A stretch of 64,000 nucleotides of DNA from Defluviitaleaceae bacterium (GTDB lineage Bacteria; Bacillota; Clostridia; Lachnospirales; WRAX01), in NCBI GenBank assembly GCA_009779935.1, contig WRAX01000003.1, positions 1 through 64,000 of the forward strand. The letters run 5' to 3'. Shown here in pieces: positions 8,751 to 57,024 of this stretch. Under the pieces are notes generated by a model. That model made no database searches and was not told the origin of the DNA. It saw only the letters and a list, made by a program, of their open reading frames with translations. The translations under genes were made by a program, and so were the position numbers. The number at the start of each line of letters is the position of its first letter. Within the stretch, counting starts at the first letter, position 1.

Positions 8751-9614
8751 TTATGCTTTGCCCTTGGATCCGAATAGCTCAATCTTCTCACGCACGGCAT
8801 TTTTTATGGCTTCCACGCCGGGGGCAAGCAGCTTGCGTGGGTCATAACCTTTGCCTTGCTTGTCCTTGCCATCCTCAACATATTGTCGGATGGCAGCAGC
8901 AAAAACCAGTTGCAGCTCTGTATTAACATTTATTTTGCTAACCCCAAGACCAATACTGCGTTTAACCATCTCCTCCGGGATGCCCGTGCCACCGTGCAAA
9001 ACCAGCGGAATACCACCGGTGGAATCATTAATGGCTTCCAATGCGTCAAAATCCAGCCCTTTCCAGTTGGCAGGGTAAACCCCGTGTATGTTGCCAATGC
9101 CTGCCGCCAAAAAGTCTATGCCCGTTTCGGCTATTCTGCGGCACTCATCCGCATCGGCAATTTCGCCCGCACCAATTACTCCATCTTCCTCGCCGCCAAT
9201 GGAGCCCACCTCAGCTTCCACAGAAATCCCTTTGGCATGGGCAAGTTTCAACACTTCTTTGGTTTTGGCAATATTTTCATCAATCGGAAGATGGCTACCA
9301 TCAAACATAACGCTGGTAAAGCCCGCATCGATGCACGCCAAACAATCCTCATATGTACCATGATCCAGATGGGTTGCTACGGGTACGGTGATTTTTAAGT
9401 CATTAACCATTGCTCCAACCAATGCAACAACGGTCTTAAAGCCACCCATGTACTTGGCAGCCCCCGCCGAAACTCCTAAGATAATAGGGCTGTTCATCTC
9501 TTGCGCCGTTTGCAAAATTGCCTTTGTCCACTCCAAATTGTTGATGTTGATTGCCCCAACAGCATATTGACTTGCACGGGCTTTTTTCAGCATTTCAGCC
9601 GCATTCACTAACAT
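8751..9614 (-). CDS. fba: Class II fructose-1,6-bisphosphate aldolase
   Basis: A zinc-dependent aldolase that splits fructose-1,6-bisphosphate in glycolysis. The 287-residue protein shows THLDHG (zinc His) near 83, FDGSHLP near 107, EAEVGSIGGEEDG near 135, GNIHGVY near 175 and LHGGTGIP near 208, with the substrate-binding NVNTE near 232. It is short, like the FbaA form common in Firmicutes. It follows the motility block by 34 nt with a good AGGA site and no obvious promoter, so it may be transcribed with it. Confidence 0.93.
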   Translation of the reverse strand: MLVNAAEMLKKARASQYAVGAININNLEWTKAILQTAQEMNSPIILGVSAGAAKYMGGFKTVVALVGAMVNDLKITVPVATHLDHGTYEDCLACIDAGFTSVMFDGSHLPIDENIAKTKEVLKLAHAKGISVEAEVGSIGGEEDGVIGAGEIADADECRRIAETGIDFLAAGIGNIHGVYPANWKGLDFDALEAINDSTGGIPLVLHGGTGIPEEMVKRSIGLGVSKINVNTELQLVFAAAIRQYVEDGKDKQGKGYDPRKLLAPGVEAIKNAVREKIELFGSKGKA

Positions 9615-44282: not shown

Positions 44283-44561
44283 ATGAATTGGAAAATATTT
44301 ACTGTGTCAGGCGGATTTTACTTCTTCGGGGAAGAGGTTGCCGCCCCCGAGGGTTATATTGCATGCGTAAAAGCCGCCATGTTCCGCCGTTTTGAAGGGG
44401 GTAAGGGTTTGCCCGGCGTCGCCCGTGGAGACGAAAATGCCATTGTGTACCTTGACACCTTTAACCCGGCACAAGAAGTATTTTTCCCTGTTTCTGCCGT
44501 GTATGCCATTTTGCCCAGCATAAATTTGTATGAATTTAAGGGGGCAAAAATTGATGCTTAA
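44283..44561 (+). CDS. Uncharacterised small protein
   Basis: A 92-residue soluble protein, mixed alpha/beta in appearance, with several Gly, Val and Phe residues. No motif or family recognised. ATG with AAGGAG 8 nt upstream and its own promoter support it as a gene. Its end overlaps the start of the glycine-rich gene by 8 nt (ATGCTTAA), so the two are likely translated together. Confidence 0.5.
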   Translation: MNWKIFTVSGGFYFFGEEVAAPEGYIACVKAAMFRRFEGGKGLPGVARGDENAIVYLDTFNPAQEVFFPVSAVYAILPSINLYEFKGAKIDA

Positions 44562-44940
44562 AGGCGGCTTTGGGGACGGGGATAAACACGCACATCCCGC
44601 AGGCAGCGGAAACGGCCATGGAAGCGGTTATGGTTATAGTTATGGCTATGGGCGGTATTTTACCTTTAACAGCCGTAGCCGGCAACCCATACCCACAGTA
44701 ACCACCGCAGAAAATAGGGGAACCGACAACACTTACACAGGTGGGGATGATGGCTTTTCCGCTTTGCGGGTGATTGTAGGGGGTGGCTATGGCATTGGCG
44801 GTGGCGGGGCTTTTGGCGGTGGTTTCGGTAATGGCTTCGACGGCGGCCATGCCCATGGAGATGGCGGTGGTTTCGGTAATGGCAATCCCCATAAAGAAAA
44901 CGGCGAGGGGTATCCCCACGCCTTGATTATTCGTTTATAA
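44554..44940 (+). CDS. Glycine-rich protein
   Basis: A 128-residue protein that is extremely rich in Gly, with Tyr (GYGYSYGYG) and His/Asn (HAHGDGGGFGNGN) clusters and a short ordered end HALIIRL. There is no signal peptide, so export is not indicated. Low-complexity Gly/Tyr-rich tracts can drive phase separation or surface binding, but function is not known. ATG at 44554 has AAGGGGG 9 nt upstream and overlaps the previous gene. The reading frame is open for its full length and ends before the convergent cupin gene. Confidence 0.5.
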   Translation: MLKGGFGDGDKHAHPAGSGNGHGSGYGYSYGYGRYFTFNSRSRQPIPTVTTAENRGTDNTYTGGDDGFSALRVIVGGGYGIGGGGAFGGGFGNGFDGGHAHGDGGGFGNGNPHKENGEGYPHALIIRL

Positions 44941-50559: not shown

Positions 50560-52716
50560 CTACCTCGCCGGTGTCCAAATATTCACAACTTCGTAGATGG
50601 ACCGCACAATGGTTACGGCCGCCAGCTGTCGGAAATTATCACAGGCAAAAAGCTCGCCGCCACGGGGGGTGTCAATAAACTCCAATTCCAACAAAGCCGC
50701 AGGTATGCGGGTGGAATTTAGCACCTGTATACGTGGGCGGTGGCGCACACCTCTATCCACAGATTCAAAGGCTTCCACCATATTAGCTTGGAAAATTTCC
50801 GCAAGATGGCGGGAATTAAAGTCGGCAGGCTCGTCATCATGTATGGTGTATAGGGTTTCTGTACCGGTCGCTACACGGTTTGCGGCATTTACATGTACAG
50901 ATATAAAGATATCCGCAACATCGTTGGCGGTGGCGGCACGGTGGGCGTTTACCACGGTAATATCACTGTCACGGGTCATATAAACCTGCACAAACCCGTC
51001 TGCCCGCAAAATTTCCGCCACCCGCAGGGAAATATCCAGTACCACATTGGCTTCCCGCATGCCATGGTGTACTGCGCCGGGGTCTTGCCCGCCGTGCCCC
51101 GGGTCCAACATCACCACAAAGGGGTGGATATCACGCGGGTTAACGTGGCGGATGAAAAAGCTGTCAGCATCATAAGTCAGCGTAAAGGCACGTATGCTGT
51201 TGGTGTGGAAAATTAGGCGGGTTTGCCCGTTTTCGGTTGTAATTTCCACGCTGTTTAGCGCACCACGGCGCACCATATATGTACCATATCCAAAAAAGCT
51301 TGAAAAATCCCCGGGAAGGATAAATGTGTAGCGACCTCGCAAATAATCATCCACACGCTGTATTTGGCTCATATCAAGCCCGGCGGGACGGCGCAAGCCA
51401 ACTGTGCCCGTCTCCTCTTGAAAGTAGATATTGCGATATGTAGGGTCTGTTAGTATAATTTCCACGGTGGCGGCATAGTAATCCCGTTTAACATTAAAGG
51501 ACACATTTTGTGATAAATCCACCACCACACGGGCTGTGTGGGGGTCAAATTGCCCAAGGCGCACAGCATTTGCAAGTACGCCGCCGCCGATTTCGCCAAA
51601 GGCCATCATGCGGGCATTTGGCAGGTCTATTACCATGCGTGGGGGGTTATCCAAAAAGAAAATATCGGTTTGGGGCAACACGCTGCCGCTGATGGTGATG
51701 GTTTCTGTGCCGTTTTGGGAATAGGAGGAGGTAAACGCCACATCCAAAATCTCCTTAGGCTCAAAGGTGACAACTACGTGGCGGCGGTCCTGTGACAGTG
51801 CCACACGATACACCACCGGGGCAGTTAAATCAAAAACCACACGGGCAACAGAATGGCCGTGGATATAATTTTGACCTGTGCGCACAAGCCCCAAAAATTC
51901 GTTATTAATACCATGGGTGCTTGGGGCGAAGTTGGCACGCCCGTTCAAAATATCCACCCGCAGGCGACCATCTTGGTGCATATACCAATCCACCCCTGTA
52001 ATGCGCCCAGCGGCAGTGATTGTAAATTGGTTGTGGTGCTCGTTCCAGGTAATGGAATTTACATTGGTTAAGGCATTGCTTTCCATGGCAATGGGCCGGG
52101 AATTGTCAATGGACAGATAGGCCAAATTAGGTCTTTTCTCCCCCTCTTCCTCAGGTTCCGCCATAAGCTCCATGTCATCGTAGTGTGTATCTTCTATTTC
52201 CTCTTCTTCCTCGGTGGAAGGATGCTCGTCCTCCATACTATCATTGCCATTATATGTCAAAAAAACTGTGCTGGTTGCATTGTCCCAGCCCACATCAAAG
52301 CCCAAAGCCCCCGCCACAAAGGACAAGGGTACCATGGTACGGTCGTTTATAATTTGCGGGGCAACATCCATAGTAAGCATGGCGTCGTCCATCCTAAATT
52401 GATGGTCACCCACATGCATTATAATCAGACTTTGCGGATGGTTGATAATAATGCGCTGTTGCTCGGGTTGAAAATCCACCACAGCATCTAACTGCTCAAA
52501 AACATGGCGCACGGGCACAAATGTGCGGTTATCAAGGATAAAGGATGGTGCGTCAGCTTCCGGCAGCGGCCGCCCATCCAGCACCAAATTTACCACCCTT
52601 GCACCACTTGCAAGGGTACCGGCATAAGCCCCCTGCCCCATTAAAACAACAAAACACAAAAATGTGACAGAATATATTAACAATTTTGTAACATTTTTAA
52701 TAAGCTTGTGTGTCAC
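50560..52716 (-). CDS. Secreted N-acetylmuramoyl-L-alanine amidase with AMIN domains
   Basis: A zinc amidase of 718 residues that cuts peptidoglycan outside the cell. Order: signal peptide (about 10-33), a copper-amine-oxidase N1-like domain (about 40-160), an acidic linker (about 160-195), two AMIN-like domains (about 200-305 and 325-430), and an Amidase_3 domain (about 530-718). Zinc ligands H541 (DPGHGG), E555 (MREANV) and H608 (SVHVNA) and the catalytic Glu E677 (LLELEF) are all present. GTG at 52716 has GGGGG 8 nt upstream; ATG at 52737 is an alternative. It has its own promoter. Confidence 0.92.
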   Translation of the reverse strand: MTHKLIKNVTKLLIYSVTFLCFVVLMGQGAYAGTLASGARVVNLVLDGRPLPEADAPSFILDNRTFVPVRHVFEQLDAVVDFQPEQQRIIINHPQSLIIMHVGDHQFRMDDAMLTMDVAPQIINDRTMVPLSFVAGALGFDVGWDNATSTVFLTYNGNDSMEDEHPSTEEEEEIEDTHYDDMELMAEPEEEGEKRPNLAYLSIDNSRPIAMESNALTNVNSITWNEHHNQFTITAAGRITGVDWYMHQDGRLRVDILNGRANFAPSTHGINNEFLGLVRTGQNYIHGHSVARVVFDLTAPVVYRVALSQDRRHVVVTFEPKEILDVAFTSSYSQNGTETITISGSVLPQTDIFFLDNPPRMVIDLPNARMMAFGEIGGGVLANAVRLGQFDPHTARVVVDLSQNVSFNVKRDYYAATVEIILTDPTYRNIYFQEETGTVGLRRPAGLDMSQIQRVDDYLRGRYTFILPGDFSSFFGYGTYMVRRGALNSVEITTENGQTRLIFHTNSIRAFTLTYDADSFFIRHVNPRDIHPFVVMLDPGHGGQDPGAVHHGMREANVVLDISLRVAEILRADGFVQVYMTRDSDITVVNAHRAATANDVADIFISVHVNAANRVATGTETLYTIHDDEPADFNSRHLAEIFQANMVEAFESVDRGVRHRPRIQVLNSTRIPAALLELEFIDTPRGGELFACDNFRQLAAVTIVRSIYEVVNIWTPAR

Positions 52717-52752
52717 AGCAAATCCCCCTATAATCATGTTATTACGACATTA

Positions 52753-52842: not shown

Positions 52843-54210
52843 TTACCAGTTGCCCTCCGCAATTAACGCAAGCACTGTTTGCAAAGCATCCATACCATCA
52901 CGGTTAAAATGGTGGGGCACTGTGCCATATTCCCAGGGTCTGCCGTCTGCGCTTATTATATACAGCATGTCGTATCGCACTTCGAAGGTGGTGTTGGGTA
53001 AAGTAATAAAAGCAGGCATTAAAGCCGCATCCGATACCATGCCCCCTGTGGTTTGCCCTACCAATGTAGCAAATCCTGTTTGGTGAAGAAATGCTGCTAT
53101 TTGTTGTGCAGCAGAAAAGTTATTCATATCAGTGAGCAACCATACTTTGCCATTAAAAGGCGCACGGCGTTCGGGATGGGGTGCAATGGATACGGTTCGT
53201 GATATATAGTAATCCATAAGGCGCAAATCGTTTACCACATCTTCTGAAAGGGTGACTTCCGGGAAGATATTTGGCAAGTCATCAATGTTAAAAGGCACCC
53301 TTTCACCCATGCTCCTTGGCGCTCGCCTCATAAGTCGTGTGTTATATTCCCCCGCCATATAAAATTGGTGAAAGATGGTTTCCAACGGATAGTCAATTAA
53401 GGGGGCGATTAAAGGGCGTGTAAAAAACTCGGTATAACCGCCGTAAATCCCCCTCATATCCAAAATTAGGTGCTCAAAACCTTCCAGTTGGCTGTAAAAC
53501 TCATCTACCTGCCGCAAAGTGTCCGAGGCGGGGTTGCGCACCCAATTATCTCCATAAATTCTTGGCAACCTTATATATGCAATTCTCCCATCTTCTATTA
53601 TATTTGTGGTTATGTTGTAATCATCGAACCCAAGCAAAGGTGTTACCATTTGGCTGTGATAAAGATGTTTTTCGTCAAATGTTGGATTGGCTAACCTGTC
53701 ACCAAAGTAGCTGTAAACGGTTCTTCGGCGATTATCAAACCTTTCATAAGCACTTCGAAAGTATGTATCATAAGAAGCCAGCCATAAGTGACCCACAGGA
53801 GAAGCGTGGCTAAAAAAATCCAGCCTTAGCATTTCCCAAAAGGGTATATAATCCCATTCTATGGATTCGTCTAAAATGCGCTCTCTTAACTCCGGCACAA
53901 GAGCCAGCATATCAACCTCATTGCGCCTGTAAATGATACCAAAGGTTGGAACATTTTCTTTAAGGGCAGTCATTAAATAGTCAAAATCTTCCAAAAACTG
54001 CTCCCGGGTTAGTTGGGGCGGTTGCCATTGGGGGCGGGGCGGGTCTGTGACAAGGGTTTTTATTAAGTCCAGCTCTGTGGGCTGTTGGGCAACCACTTCT
54101 GGTGCGTAGGCATCGTCACCGGGCATAAAAATAATTGGCAAAATAATTACAACCGCTGCAAACAAGGCTACAAGCATGGTTACCATAAAAACTGTTTTGC
54201 TTTTTTTCAT
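52843..54210 (-). CDS. Membrane-anchored S41-type peptidase (copy 1)
   Basis: A 455-residue protein with one N-terminal membrane anchor (about 9-31) and an extracellular body. The S41 core is in the C-terminal third: a conserved LILDMRGIYGGY strand near 247, and the catalytic Ser366 in TDMNNFSAAQQ, then TLVGQTTGG. The CtpA-type lysine (GKG) is Gly here, so it resembles S41B or IRBP-like members, and the base is uncertain. There is no PDZ domain. It is paired with a secreted peptide gene upstream and is a close paralogue of 54628-55968. Confidence 0.72.
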   Translation of the reverse strand: MKKSKTVFMVTMLVALFAAVVIILPIIFMPGDDAYAPEVVAQQPTELDLIKTLVTDPPRPQWQPPQLTREQFLEDFDYLMTALKENVPTFGIIYRRNEVDMLALVPELRERILDESIEWDYIPFWEMLRLDFFSHASPVGHLWLASYDTYFRSAYERFDNRRRTVYSYFGDRLANPTFDEKHLYHSQMVTPLLGFDDYNITTNIIEDGRIAYIRLPRIYGDNWVRNPASDTLRQVDEFYSQLEGFEHLILDMRGIYGGYTEFFTRPLIAPLIDYPLETIFHQFYMAGEYNTRLMRRAPRSMGERVPFNIDDLPNIFPEVTLSEDVVNDLRLMDYYISRTVSIAPHPERRAPFNGKVWLLTDMNNFSAAQQIAAFLHQTGFATLVGQTTGGMVSDAALMPAFITLPNTTFEVRYDMLYIISADGRPWEYGTVPHHFNRDGMDALQTVLALIAEGNW

Positions 54211-54227
54211 ATTTAACCTCCAAAGTG

Positions 54228-54272
54228 AAACACCCCAACCCCTGCATGTGCGATGGTGGGGTTGGGGTGTTT
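54228..54272 (-). terminator. Strong hairpin between peptide 1 and protease 1
   Basis: A perfect 15-bp stem (54258-54272 with 54228-54242) and a 15-nt loop lie between the peptide stop and the protease ATG. On the minus-strand RNA the stem is followed by a short U-rich run. It could end most transcripts so that the peptide is made in excess of the protease. Confidence 0.65.
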
Positions 54273-54295
54273 TGTATTATGTTGCATTTAGCACG

Positions 54296-54493
54296 TTAAG
54301 GCCTTGTTTGACCCGGGCGGAAAACGCCTGGTATATTAACACCTCCACTGCCATCGCAAAAATCGGGGTGAGGGGAAAGTGCGCCAACACCTATGTAATC
54401 CGGTTGGCTATCCAGGCTTCCTGCCATAACAACAGCACTGGCGGAAAATACCATGGTCAGCGTCAAAATTGACGCAACGATTTTCTTTTTCAT
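54296..54493 (-). CDS. Secreted small peptide precursor 1
   Basis: A 65-residue precursor with a clean signal peptide (MKKKIVASILTLTMVFSASA then VVMA; cleavage near A24-G25). The mature part begins GSLDSQPDYIGVGALS and ends with a different tail (PHPDFCDGSGG...RPGQTRP) containing one Cys. It is 39-41 residues after cleavage. Residues 1-40 match peptide 2 except one Asp/Asn change. ATG at 54493 has AGGAGG 8 nt upstream, but that site is buried in a hairpin. It lies upstream of a protease gene. Confidence 0.65.
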   Translation of the reverse strand: MKKKIVASILTLTMVFSASAVVMAGSLDSQPDYIGVGALSPHPDFCDGSGGVNIPGVFRPGQTRP

Positions 54494-54528
54494 TTGCAAT
54501 TCCTCCTAAAAAATGTTTTTTTAGGAGG
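54376..54528. repeat. Long direct repeat, copy 1
   Basis: A 153-bp block, without gaps, recurs at 56160-56312 (offset 1784). It covers the signal-peptide region, the start and the ribosome-site hairpin of the peptide gene. A few substitutions occur, mainly silent. The promoter beyond it also matches, at an offset 24 bp larger because of a tandem insertion in copy 2. Confidence 0.8.
54502..54528 (-). promoter_or_regulatory. Hairpin hiding the ribosome site of peptide 1
   Basis: On the minus-strand RNA a 12-bp stem pairs CCUCCUAAAAAA with UUUUUUAGGAGG around a 3-nt loop. AGGAGG is the ribosome site for the peptide start, which lies 8 nt downstream. All six bases of the site are paired, so translation should be controlled by opening this stem. 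Confidence 0.75.
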
Positions 54529-54539
54529 CTTCTTGTAAC

Positions 54540-54568
54540 ATTATATCAAACGCCATCTGTATTGTCAA
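54540..54568 (-). promoter_or_regulatory. Consensus sigma-A promoter of peptide 1
   Basis: TTGACA (54563-54568), a 17-bp spacer ending TGA and TATAAT (54540-54545) on the minus strand. Both boxes are perfect consensus with extended -10, so transcription should be very strong. Sequence upstream of the -35 is shared with the promoter of peptide 2. Confidence 0.85.
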
Positions 54569-54627
54569 GTGTTTTTTGATGCTTTTGGACAATTATTTTT
54601 TAATACTTAACGTTTGTTTGGTTAAAT

Positions 54628-55968
54628 TCAGTAATTCCCCTCCGCAATTAACGCAAGCACTGTTTGCAAAGCATTCATACCATCACGGTTAAAATGGTGG
54701 GGTACTGTGCCGTACTCCCAGGGTCTGCCGTCTGCGCTTATTATGTATAGGGGGTCATAGCGCACCATAAAGCCTGTGTTTGGTAGCGTGAAGTTAAAAG
54801 AGCTTGTAAGCGCATCCGCCGCCGCACCGCCTGTGGTTTGCCCAACAAGGGTAGCAAAGCCTGTTTGGTGAAGAAAAGATGCGACCTGCTGTGCGGCAGA
54901 AAAGTTATTCATATCTGTTAATAACCACACTTTGCCATTAAATGGCGCACGGCGTTCTGGATGGGGTGCCACGCTAATTGTGCGCGCAATATGGTAATCC
55001 ATATATCGTAAATCTTCCGCCACCGCTTCCGTAAGGCCGCCATGGGGGAATATATAGCTTAGATCATCCATATAAAAAGGCACTCTTTCGCCGATAGCCC
55101 TTGGCATGCTAATCATAAACCTTGTATTGCGGTCACCGGCCATAATAAACTGGTGAAAGGTGGTTTCCAAAGGATAATCAATAAGGGGTGCAATTAACAA
55201 GCGGGTTAGGGCAGTTGGCCAACCTCCCAGTATGCCTCTCATATCTATAATAAGATGCTCGGCACCTTCCAGTTGGCTATAGAAATCATCAACACGCCGT
55301 ATATTGCTGGGGGTGGGCATTGCGTTGTCCAACATTACGCTACTCGGCAACCTTATATAGGCAACACGCCCTTCCTGCATGATATTTGCAACTATCTGGC
55401 TTTCACTGAACCCCTTGTACATATTTGATATATGTAGGACATGGTGATCGGTATGCCACATAGCATTTCCAAGCCTGCCCCCAAAGTAAGCATAAACATT
55501 TCTTTGGTTCATTGGGCCCGGCGGAAAGTATTGGTGACTTTTTAAATATAAATGCCCAACAGGAAAAGCATGTCTAAAAAAGTCCTGCCTAAGCATATTA
55601 AAAAAGGGGGCATAGTCCCACTCTATGCTCTCATCTAAAATGCGCTCCCTAAGCTCCGGTGCCAGGGCCAGCATATCAACACCATTGCGCCTGTAAATTA
55701 CCCCAAAGGATGGGAAGTTTTCTTCCAGGGTGGTTATTAGAAAATCAAAATCTTCCAAAAACTGTTCCCGGGTTAGCTCCGGCGGCCGCCATTGGTGGCG
55801 CTCTCTTGTTAATGCAGGCTGTGTAGGTTCTATCACATTAGCATTATTTGTCACTTCAAAGTCACAATCACTACCCTGTGGCATAAAAATAGCCGGCAAA
55901 AAAATTAATACCGCAGATAGTAGGGATATAGCTACAGTTATGCCTAAAATCGCTTTATACTTTTCCAT
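54628..55968 (-). CDS. Membrane-anchored S41-type peptidase (copy 2)
   Basis: A 446-residue paralogue of the protein at 52843-54210, with an N-terminal membrane anchor (about 8-30), the same N-terminal motif LTREQFLEDFDFLI near 68, and the S41 core with Ser357 in MNNFSAAQQ and LVGQTTGGAA. It has the same Gly in place of the CtpA lysine. The two differ mostly in the region around 150-240. ATG has AGGAGG 6 nt upstream. The gene lies 84 nt after peptide 2, with a hairpin in between. Confidence 0.72.
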   Translation of the reverse strand: MEKYKAILGITVAISLLSAVLIFLPAIFMPQGSDCDFEVTNNANVIEPTQPALTRERHQWRPPELTREQFLEDFDFLITTLEENFPSFGVIYRRNGVDMLALAPELRERILDESIEWDYAPFFNMLRQDFFRHAFPVGHLYLKSHQYFPPGPMNQRNVYAYFGGRLGNAMWHTDHHVLHISNMYKGFSESQIVANIMQEGRVAYIRLPSSVMLDNAMPTPSNIRRVDDFYSQLEGAEHLIIDMRGILGGWPTALTRLLIAPLIDYPLETTFHQFIMAGDRNTRFMISMPRAIGERVPFYMDDLSYIFPHGGLTEAVAEDLRYMDYHIARTISVAPHPERRAPFNGKVWLLTDMNNFSAAQQVASFLHQTGFATLVGQTTGGAAADALTSSFNFTLPNTGFMVRYDPLYIISADGRPWEYGTVPHHFNRDGMNALQTVLALIAEGNY

Positions 55969-55988
55969 CGCTTCCTCCTAAAATAAAA

Positions 55989-56022
55989 CACCACACAACC
56001 CATGATGCGGGGCTGTGTGGTG
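55989..56022 (-). terminator. Hairpin between peptide 2 and protease 2
   Basis: A 13-bp stem pairs 56010-56022 with 55989-56001; the one DNA mismatch is a G-U pair in the minus-strand RNA. It is followed by UUUUAUUUU, a typical intrinsic-terminator tail. The sequence is unrelated to the hairpin at 54228-54272 but the place is the same. Confidence 0.7.
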
Positions 56023-56052
56023 AAAAACTAATTAATTAATTTAAGCCCTATT

Positions 56053-56277
56053 TTAGTCTTGTCCGGGTCTCCATCCACAGCAGCAAGGTGGAAATGGATC
56101 CGGACGAAATGGTGGTCTGTGTCCACCGCCGCCCCCATCACAAACCCCGGGTTGGGTTGAAAGTGCGCCAACACCTATGTAATCTGGTTGGCTATTCAGG
56201 CTTCCGGCCATAACAACAGCACTGGCGGAAAACACCATGGTCAGCGTCAAAATTGACGCAACGATTTTCTTTTTCAT
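56053..56277 (-). CDS. Secreted small peptide precursor 2
   Basis: A 74-residue precursor with the same signal peptide as peptide 1 (cleavage near A24-G25). The mature part starts GSLNSQPDYIGVGALS, and the tail is different: TQPGVCDGGGGGHRPPF, then a Pro-rich FPPCCCGWRPGQD end with three adjacent Cys. P43, C46, D47 and G48 are shared with peptide 1. ATG at 56277 has AGGAGG 8 nt upstream within a hairpin. It lies upstream of protease 2. Confidence 0.65.
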   Translation of the reverse strand: MKKKIVASILTLTMVFSASAVVMAGSLNSQPDYIGVGALSTQPGVCDGGGGGHRPPFRPDPFPPCCCGWRPGQD

Positions 56278-56312
56278 TTGCAATTCCTCCTAAAAAATGT
56301 TTTTTTAGGAAG
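56160..56312. repeat. Long direct repeat, copy 2
   Basis: The counterpart of 54376-54528, aligned without gaps. Together they show that the cassette was duplicated and that the region encoding the signal and the leader stayed alike while the mature tail diverged. Confidence 0.8.
56286..56312 (-). promoter_or_regulatory. Hairpin hiding the ribosome site of peptide 2
   Basis: The same 12-bp stem as in copy 1, with loop positions 56298-56300. One base differs (C to U in the left arm) and forms a G-U pair in RNA, so pairing is retained. This difference supports an RNA structure on the minus strand rather than a DNA palindrome. Confidence 0.75.
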
Positions 56313-56342
56313 CTCCTTTCGAAGCTCCTTTCGAAGCTCCTT
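56309..56342 (-). repeat. Tandem 12-bp repeat in the leader of peptide 2
   Basis: GAAGCTCCTTTC occurs 2.8 times (56309-56342). Copy 1 has a single degenerate unit at the same site. On the RNA the unit reads GAAAGGAGCUUC, so each adds an AAAGGAG, a ribosome-site-like sequence, upstream of the hidden one. Confidence 0.75.
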
Positions 56343-56347
56343 GTAAT

Positions 56348-56376
56348 ATTATAGCAAATACAAATGGTGGTGTCAA
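56348..56376 (-). promoter_or_regulatory. Consensus sigma-A promoter of peptide 2
   Basis: TTGACA (56371-56376), a 17-bp spacer ending TGC and TATAAT (56348-56353) on the minus strand, equivalent to the promoter at 54540-54568. Confidence 0.85.
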
Positions 56377-56481: not shown

Positions 56482-57024
56482 ATGGCAGACATTAAAGGCG
56501 GCATTGAGAAGGCAGTAAAGGCTGTTGCACATGGCGGCGGCACATTTGTTAAGACAACTAAATTAACCATATCCCTTTCCAGTGAGGAAGGCAAGTTAAA
56601 CAACATTTACACCCAAATCGGGAAAAGTGTGCACGAAATTTATAAGCACGGCGGCTCGCTGGGTGCAATGTTTGACGAAAGGTATAAAGAGATTTTGGAG
56701 GCAGAGGCACGCATTGCGGATATTAAAAACCGTTTAGAAATCGCCAAGGGCGTGGTGCTTTGCGCAAAATGCAACGCATCCGCCAAGCGTGGGTCGGCTT
56801 TTTGCCCCAAATGCGGGGAAAGCTTTGGCGAAGCGGCAGAAGCGTCGGAAACGCCCGCCGTTGCCCCCCATGCACGGCACACCCCCCATGTTGCGCCCCC
56901 GGTTTCTGAACCGGAGCCCATGCCTGTACCAAATCCTGTACCACAGGGGAAAACTTGCGGTATTTGCGGTTCGGTAGCAGCTGTGGGCGAGCGGTTTTGT
57001 ATGTCCTGCGGGCGGGCATTGTAA
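56482..57024 (+). CDS. Coiled-coil protein with two zinc ribbons
   Basis: A 180-residue protein. An N-terminal helical/coiled-coil region (about 1-92) is followed by a zinc ribbon (LCAKCNASAKRGSAFCPKCG, residues about 94-112), a Pro/His-rich disordered linker (about 118-155), and a second ribbon (TCGICG...FCMSCG, 158-178). It is the first gene of the unit and stands where ctsR is found in Bacillus. It is not a CtsR homologue by eye. ATG has GGGAGG 9 nt upstream. Confidence 0.7.
   Translation: MADIKGGIEKAVKAVAHGGGTFVKTTKLTISLSSEEGKLNNIYTQIGKSVHEIYKHGGSLGAMFDERYKEILEAEARIADIKNRLEIAKGVVLCAKCNASAKRGSAFCPKCGESFGEAAEASETPAVAPHARHTPHVAPPVSEPEPMPVPNPVPQGKTCGICGSVAAVGERFCMSCGRAL

Follow-up and report, generated by a model that had tools for sequence, protein, structure and literature searches.

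Tandem units of a variable, probably secreted peptide and a predicted membrane-anchored S41 protease in a Defluviitaleaceae genome

The window analysed here is a stretch of 64,000 nucleotides from a Defluviitaleaceae bacterium (assembly GCA_009779935.1, contig WRAX01000003.1, positions 1 to 64,000). Between 52843 and 56376, on the minus strand, it contains two tandem units, each made up of a promoter, a stem in the 5' untranslated region (UTR), a small peptide gene with a general secretion (Sec) signal, a hairpin and an S41 protease gene. An earlier note on this DNA had described twin promoter-peptide-hairpin-protease units in the same order and strand, and they are present. The adjacency of peptide and S41 genes exceeds chance, and the protease very probably acts on the neighbouring peptide outside the cell. 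The parts of the two units are as follows.

56348..56376 (-): unit 1 promoter, TTGACA-N17-TATAAT with TG before the -10 box (12/12 consensus)
56286..56312 (-): unit 1 5'UTR stem, 12 pairs, with the whole AGGAGG ribosome-binding site inside (fold of 56230-56360, z -3.8)
56053..56277 (-): peptide 1, 74 aa from ATG; predicted Sec signal (about 1-24), conserved segment GSLNSQPDYIGVGALS, tail CDGGGGGHRPPFRPDPFPPCCCGWRPGQD (open reading frame, ORF, with AGGAGG)
55989..56022 (-): intergenic hairpin of unit 1, terminator-like, 13 pairs followed by TTTTATTTT (fold, z about -3.6)
54628..55968 (-): S41 protease 1, 446 aa; N-terminal membrane anchor at about 7-29, predicted extracellular S41 domain 201-423, putative dyad His139/Ser357 (Pfam PF03572, E 1.9e-14; AlphaFold model; PDB matches; alignment)
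54540..54568 (-): unit 2 promoter, TTGACA-N17-TATAAT (12/12 consensus)
54502..54528 (-): unit 2 5'UTR stem, 12 pairs including AGGAGG; G-C where unit 1 has G-U (fold)
54296..54493 (-): peptide 2, 65 aa; head as in peptide 1, tail CDGSGGVNIPGVFRPGQTRP (ORF with AGGAGG)
54228..54272 (-): intergenic hairpin of unit 2, outer stem of 15 pairs, with no sequence relation to the hairpin of unit 1 (z -4.8)
52843..54210 (-): S41 protease 2, 455 aa, architecture as in S41 1 (Pfam PF03572, E 3.8e-14)

The same genome (a 2.1-Mb assembly) has a second twin locus on contig C17, so that there are four full peptide homologues including the two in the window. Remnants are also found: a decayed peptide on C25 and a broken S41 gene beside a transposase-like gene on C27. 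The congener G002 contains one complete unit (locus L054). When 84,980 species genomes were searched for close relatives of the S41, just three loci came up, in two Defluviitaleaceae metagenome-assembled genomes (MAGs), and no relative was found among viral contigs, phages and plasmids. The genome has its nearest named relatives among Defluviitaleaceae MAGs, and this group is treated in a study of MAGs from the guts of higher termites (PMC7024585). Further units, in genomes G584 and G569 (two genera of another family, f5), were found by surveying S41 cousins in the order and scanning upstream of them. A profile made from three of the G584/G569 peptides identified 12 peptide genes, two of which run off contigs; each of the ten complete genes has an S41 gene directly after it, and twins occur on four contigs. 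Across four genomes (three genera, two families, one order), an S41 gene directly follows 15 of the 16 intact uncut peptide genes; a peptide mostly separate from the protease, which the earlier note had named as evidence against a pair, is thus not what the genomes contain. Seen from the other side, a peptide gene lies just upstream of 9/82 S41 genes and of 0/323 true non-S41 genes at the same loci (Fisher p 3e-6, a value which treats the paralogues as independent, which they are not). The lone 'other' match in this count is a duplicate record of the G002 S41 and was excluded from the non-S41 genes.

The peptides share a common plan across the units: a signal, a short conserved mature segment, and a hypervariable tail rich in Gly, Pro and Cys. 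The two window peptides are identical at 39 of their first 40 residues, with the sole difference at position 28, and beyond this they share P43, C46, D47 and G48, all as first described. Their common C-terminal RPGQ was also correctly reported, but neither of the other two full copies in the genome has it, and it is therefore not a feature of the family. The promoter, 5'UTR and codons 1-24 are nearly identical as DNA; recent homogenisation therefore explains part of the 39/40 identity. Residues 25-40 are conserved as protein (nonsynonymous differences per site, pN, 0.03-0.08 against synonymous differences, pS, 0.17-0.99 among the genome's own units) and are under purifying selection. The tails of these units have a charge of 0 to +1. 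A C-x-G-x-G-G motif is frequent in the tails of the G584/G569 peptides; its counterpart in the window is CDGGGGG. The intact G002 peptide gene on C61 (L282, 1054-1907) shares a VCDGGPGAGRP motif, and the 179-aa lipoprotein encoded beside it, of no known family, is a possible alternative partner.

No Pfam, NCBIfam or PADLOC model covers the peptide. Apart from the S41 domain, all matches of the units are below cut-off, and PADLOC gives no defence match. The Lactococcin 972 bacteriocin model (TIGR01653) scores 13.7 bits, below its cut-off of 32.1, and matches the signal peptide only; the model of the Phr N-terminus also gives a weak match below cut-off. Matches weaker than about 1e-9 to the peptide profiles A1 (196 relatives) and A8 (373 genomes) were not counted as members; nearly all of those that can be judged are signal peptides of large proteins, or AGP-type peptides beside genes encoding helix-turn-helix tetratricopeptide-repeat (HTH-TPR) proteins. 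The peptide on C8 of G002 belongs to an HTH-TPR pair and lies outside the window peptide family.

The units are mosaics at the DNA level. Among the four units of the genome, identity is 87-96% over the promoter, 5'UTR and peptide codons 1-24 and 85-97% over the last 46 S41 codons, against 34-69% over the peptide tail, the hairpin and S41 codons 1-60 and 144-344. Synonymous differences follow the same pattern: pS is 0.06-0.12 in the head (codons 1-24) and 0.10-0.35 at the S41 3' end, against 0.57-0.89 in the tail and, for the most part, 0.5-0.96 in the S41 body. The clearest mosaic is unit 1 of C17, the S41 of which groups with that of G002 (support 100/100) although its last 46 codons are 97% identical to those of window unit 1. 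The interior is thus old and diverged, between flanks made uniform by recent recombination. Within genome groups, similarity of the S41 enzymes is correlated with similarity of the tails (r 0.51, permutation p 0.0024). The correlation holds for the N-terminal and middle part of the S41 (r 0.48, p 0.0028) and is weaker for the last 60 residues (r 0.18, p 0.11); it is carried by the body of the enzyme.

S41 1 and S41 2 are about 65% identical, in agreement with the close paralogy claimed for them. Both belong to Peptidase_S41 (PF03572; 54 and 53 bits, cut-off 24), which is the only domain match; a PDZ domain was not found in either, and the NCBIfam prc model scores 11.6 bits against a cut-off of 218.6. 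Ser357, which lies in the S-A-A region, is invariant in 19/19 aligned enzymes, and His139, in a G-H motif, is kept in 17/19; the enzymes are predicted to be of the Ser/His type. The Ser/Lys dyad of the C-terminal processing type is absent, since Ala or Met occupies the Lys position, which we take from CtpB and D1P to be Ser+25. In an AlphaFold model of moderate quality (five input sequences; predicted local distance difference test, pLDDT, 67), residues 2-27 form a hydrophobic N-terminal helix; there is no lipobox. Foldseek matches of the model include 8vcb, 4l8k, IRBP, CPAF, CtpA and 4y68 (E 7e-10). The last is annotated in the match list as a Streptococcus agalactiae lipoprotein, and we take it to be the structure of the nisin-resistance protease SaNSR; 8vcb, 4l8k and IRBP outrank it, and the sequence profile picks up IRBP, 8vcb, 4l8k and CPAF but not 4y68.

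Distant S41 cousins are also found beside other small peptide genes. Locus L114 (4834-11614) has twin cassettes of precursor, S41 and radical S-adenosylmethionine (radical-SAM) genes, and L169 (7116-10296) has one. The precursors have a common MKPIIETGW leader followed by divergent Cys/Gly/Pro cores, are without an NCBIfam model, and could represent a new class of ribosomally synthesised and post-translationally modified peptide (RiPP). They resemble the window units in having a conserved leader and a variable core directly before an anchored S41, in twin form in L114, but they differ in the cytoplasmic-type leader without a Sec signal, in the radical-SAM enzyme and in the separate clade of the S41. 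In the genome of the window itself, L088 (C5:58000-77000) is a radical-SAM/SPASM cluster with two S41 genes, two radical-SAM genes and ATP-binding cassette (ABC) transporters. It also contains Cys-rich precursor-like ORFs, among them one at 8878-9063 (MKSSDQMTSIIDLMWEPEETVELLSP...), and an HTH-TPR pseudogene with a convergent secreted peptide. In L202 an HTH-TPR receptor (TPR and weak RapH_N matches), a Pro-rich Sec peptide and an anchored S41 are consecutive. The S41s of L114, L169, L088 and L202 all fall outside the window clade in the tree, and the pairing of S41 enzymes with small variable peptides has therefore arisen at least twice. A radical-SAM gene lies within 500 bp of the S41 in 6/90 of the wider S41 set; the association is real but a minority one, and so provides context and not proof. 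No radical-SAM match lies within 5 kb of the window or C17 S41s, so these units do not have the modifying enzyme expected of a RiPP locus. As a separate observation, L203 (5380-10337, G590) has tandem anchored S41 genes together with precursor-like ORFs rich in Cys (M[EK]YLV.PQ.I.TR...C...MSLN), and there is a weak radical-SAM match in the vicinity.

The earlier note proposed that the protease matures, exports or responds to the peptide, or protects the cell against it. The link between peptide and protease is well supported by recurrence, order and co-divergence; the export role is unsupported, since the peptide has its own Sec signal, and sequence does not separate maturation from self-protection. 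Tentatively, we favour the reading in which the S41 releases or trims the variable tail of its own unit's peptide. It is ranked first for two reasons: S41 cousins occupy positions at which a leader or propeptide has to come off, and the constant pro-region has been kept; purifying selection on residues 25-40 suits a pro-region that is recognised. Each unit would then be a self-contained peptide-production cassette, in which a small propeptide, exported by Sec, would be expressed from a strong promoter through a ribosome site that is partly blocked. The constant head would consist of the signal and about 16 mature residues, and the Gly/Pro/Cys-rich tail would be the diversified product. A leaky hairpin would pass a lesser amount of message to the S41 gene, and the anchored S41, with its active site outside, would cut the exported peptide of its own unit and free or trim the tail. 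Tail and S41 body would diversify as one block, while recombination between units would keep the flanking DNA uniform.

Several points weigh against this reading. Gene content and order, promoters, hairpins, recurrence, mosaic DNA and co-divergence are observed, but export, topology, the peptide as substrate and activation by cutting are all predictions. Removal of a constant leader does not require the enzyme to diversify with the tail, and pair-specific immunity suits this diversification better. Co-divergence is also expected from linked inheritance, which alone could yield the correlation between tail and S41; mutual recognition is therefore supported and not proven. In G002 there is an intact S41 gene without a peptide (L053), and the sixteenth intact peptide gene, on C61, has the lipoprotein gene in place of the S41.

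Self-protection is the nearest rival, possible though less likely: it would account for the joint diversification of tail and enzyme body, and for the private enzyme of each peptide, which has few other explanations. The peptide would harm close relatives, and the anchored S41 would destroy its own unit's peptide at the surface of the producer, as NSR cuts nisin; on the same lesser footing, the diversification of tail and S41 body would represent toxin-immunity specificity. The gene order (toxin, then immunity), the many non-identical pairs per genome, the diversified interior between uniform flanks and the co-divergence of tail and S41 all suit this rival. The S41 of L053 would be an orphan immunity gene. 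Lipoprotein immunity is known (NisI), and the peptide relative paired with a lipoprotein on C61 fits it. On the other side, the tails are not strongly cationic, toxicity is putative, and the hosts are known here from assembled genomes alone; the cousin S41s in radical-SAM clusters are compatible with either role. One precedent is SaNSR, to which the Foldseek match to 4y68 also points: a membrane-anchored S41 with a Ser/His dyad which recognises the C-terminal part of nisin (PMC4828448). Like the window enzymes, as predicted, NSR has a single N-terminal membrane anchor, an extracellular PDZ-less S41 domain and a Ser/His dyad, and it acts on a secreted peptide, as the window S41s presumably would. 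It differs in its TASSAEM motif (NNFSAAQ in the window enzymes), in not being their closest fold match, and in adjoining an ABC transporter and a two-component system in strains that are not producers of the peptide. Among the ORFs neighbouring the window units, none was recognised as an ABC transporter or two-component gene, the nsrFP-RK partners; the twin locus is flanked by ORFs for a protein of 725 aa (50560-52737) and for a zinc-ribbon-like protein of 180 aa (56482-57024). Under both maturation and self-protection the peptide would have a role in competition or signalling.

A signalling role of a more specific kind is improbable. The peptide would be a pro-pheromone, and the S41 would make or clear a signal read, after uptake, by a cytoplasmic HTH-TPR receptor of the RRNPP type. 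The propeptides of known RRNPP systems leave the cell by Sec and are processed by proteases outside it (PMC11343458), and pairs such as Rap-Phr, PlcR-PapR and NprR-NprX resemble the window units in the short Sec propeptide, the variable C-terminal part, the many paralogous cassettes and extracellular proteolysis. However, the partner in those systems is a cytoplasmic TPR receptor and not a protease, and the maturing proteases described (such as Bpr, WprA and Vpr) are general extracellular enzymes. L202 has receptor, peptide and S41 in a row, but the peptide there belongs to a different sequence type (AGP...PP) and the S41 is a very distant one. Next to the G002 unit (L054) is an HTH regulator that matches RNPP_C weakly and has a small secreted peptide of its own. 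No HTH-TPR receptor gene lies beside the window or C17 units, although such genes are present in the L054 neighbourhood and in L202, and constitutive consensus promoters would be unusual for a quorum signal. Least likely is that there is no enzyme-substrate pair and that a Gly/Pro-rich surface or matrix protein is co-transcribed with a general housekeeping or degradative S41: the low-complexity Gly/Pro tails and the fact that most S41 cousins stand alone, as lipoproteins or secreted proteins, fit this, but the one-to-one pairing repeated in three genera, the private S41 of each peptide and the tail-S41 co-divergence do not.

The statement that no described system has these parts stands in part: no database model covers the peptide and, within an incomplete coverage of the literature, no paper was found on the pair; however, related arrangements exist in the nisin-resistance S41 and in thuricin CD-like clusters. 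The latter are sactibiotic clusters with a C-terminal (S41-type) protease, the role of which, given as 'immunity or leader cleavage', is unsettled (PMC3132745). There too the protease gene adjoins small peptide genes, but with radical-SAM maturases and an ABC transporter, neither of which is found in the window units, and the window peptide has a Sec signal. A protease beside peptide genes is thus a familiar arrangement; what is apparently undescribed is the two-gene form that uses Sec only, is mosaic and occurs in multiple copies. The units may represent a new class of secreted-peptide system, an idea put forward with some reserve. The diversifying tail and its private anchored S41 would form one exchangeable specificity block between a uniform promoter-head and a uniform protease 3' end; units would increase in number and exchange blocks inside a genome, so that every strain would have a set of pairs of its own, and the S41 lineage would repeatedly have been combined with peptides of three kinds (Sec-type, radical-SAM RiPP and pheromone-type). 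If so, a group of gut and termite-gut Clostridia makes strain-specific secreted peptides with two genes each and their own surface protease, and with no modifying enzyme in the loci of the window. This would open a way to study competition or communication among these bacteria, the product being either weapon or signal. Further units could be found by a simple genomic signature, in which a consensus promoter is followed by a small Sec peptide, a hairpin and an anchored S41. The units would also help to explain why S41 proteases recur beside peptide genes, the question left open for thuricin CD-like clusters, by serving as a test case.

The regulatory parts recur with the units. Both window promoters match the sigma-70 consensus at 12/12 positions with a 17-nt spacer, as had been noted, and both C17 units have the same promoter as window unit 1. 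In the G584/G569 units, TTGACA-N17 promoters with 10-11/12 matches precede the peptide gene in 9/9 testable cases. The hairpin reported between peptide and protease genes does fold in both window units, and most G584/G569 units also have an intergenic hairpin at this place, with unrelated sequences. A second hairpin was overlooked: the 5'UTR stem, which lies under a perfect promoter and pairs the whole AGGAGG. It is found in all four units of the genome and has no clear counterpart in the congener G002. AAGGAGCTTCG repeats precede it in window unit 1 and C17 unit 1.

Other regulator-peptide pairs are present in this order. Genes for HTH-TPR regulators of about 430 aa followed by a Sec peptide of 46-69 aa (many MKK...AGPI...PP) occur in L284 (1857-3277, on C24 of the same genome as the window), L283, L285-L291, L293 and L084 (6129-7621); these look like an RRNPP-type quorum-sensing family. 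Smaller HTH regulators of 300-342 aa, with a small secreted peptide gene convergent at the 3' end, occur in L054 (1297-2442), L088/L137, L134, L138 and L169 (10556-11663); weak RNPP_C matches are found in L054 and L169. Elsewhere in the window, a candidate ORF at 44530-44940 (+) encodes a Gly-rich, low-complexity protein of 136 aa.

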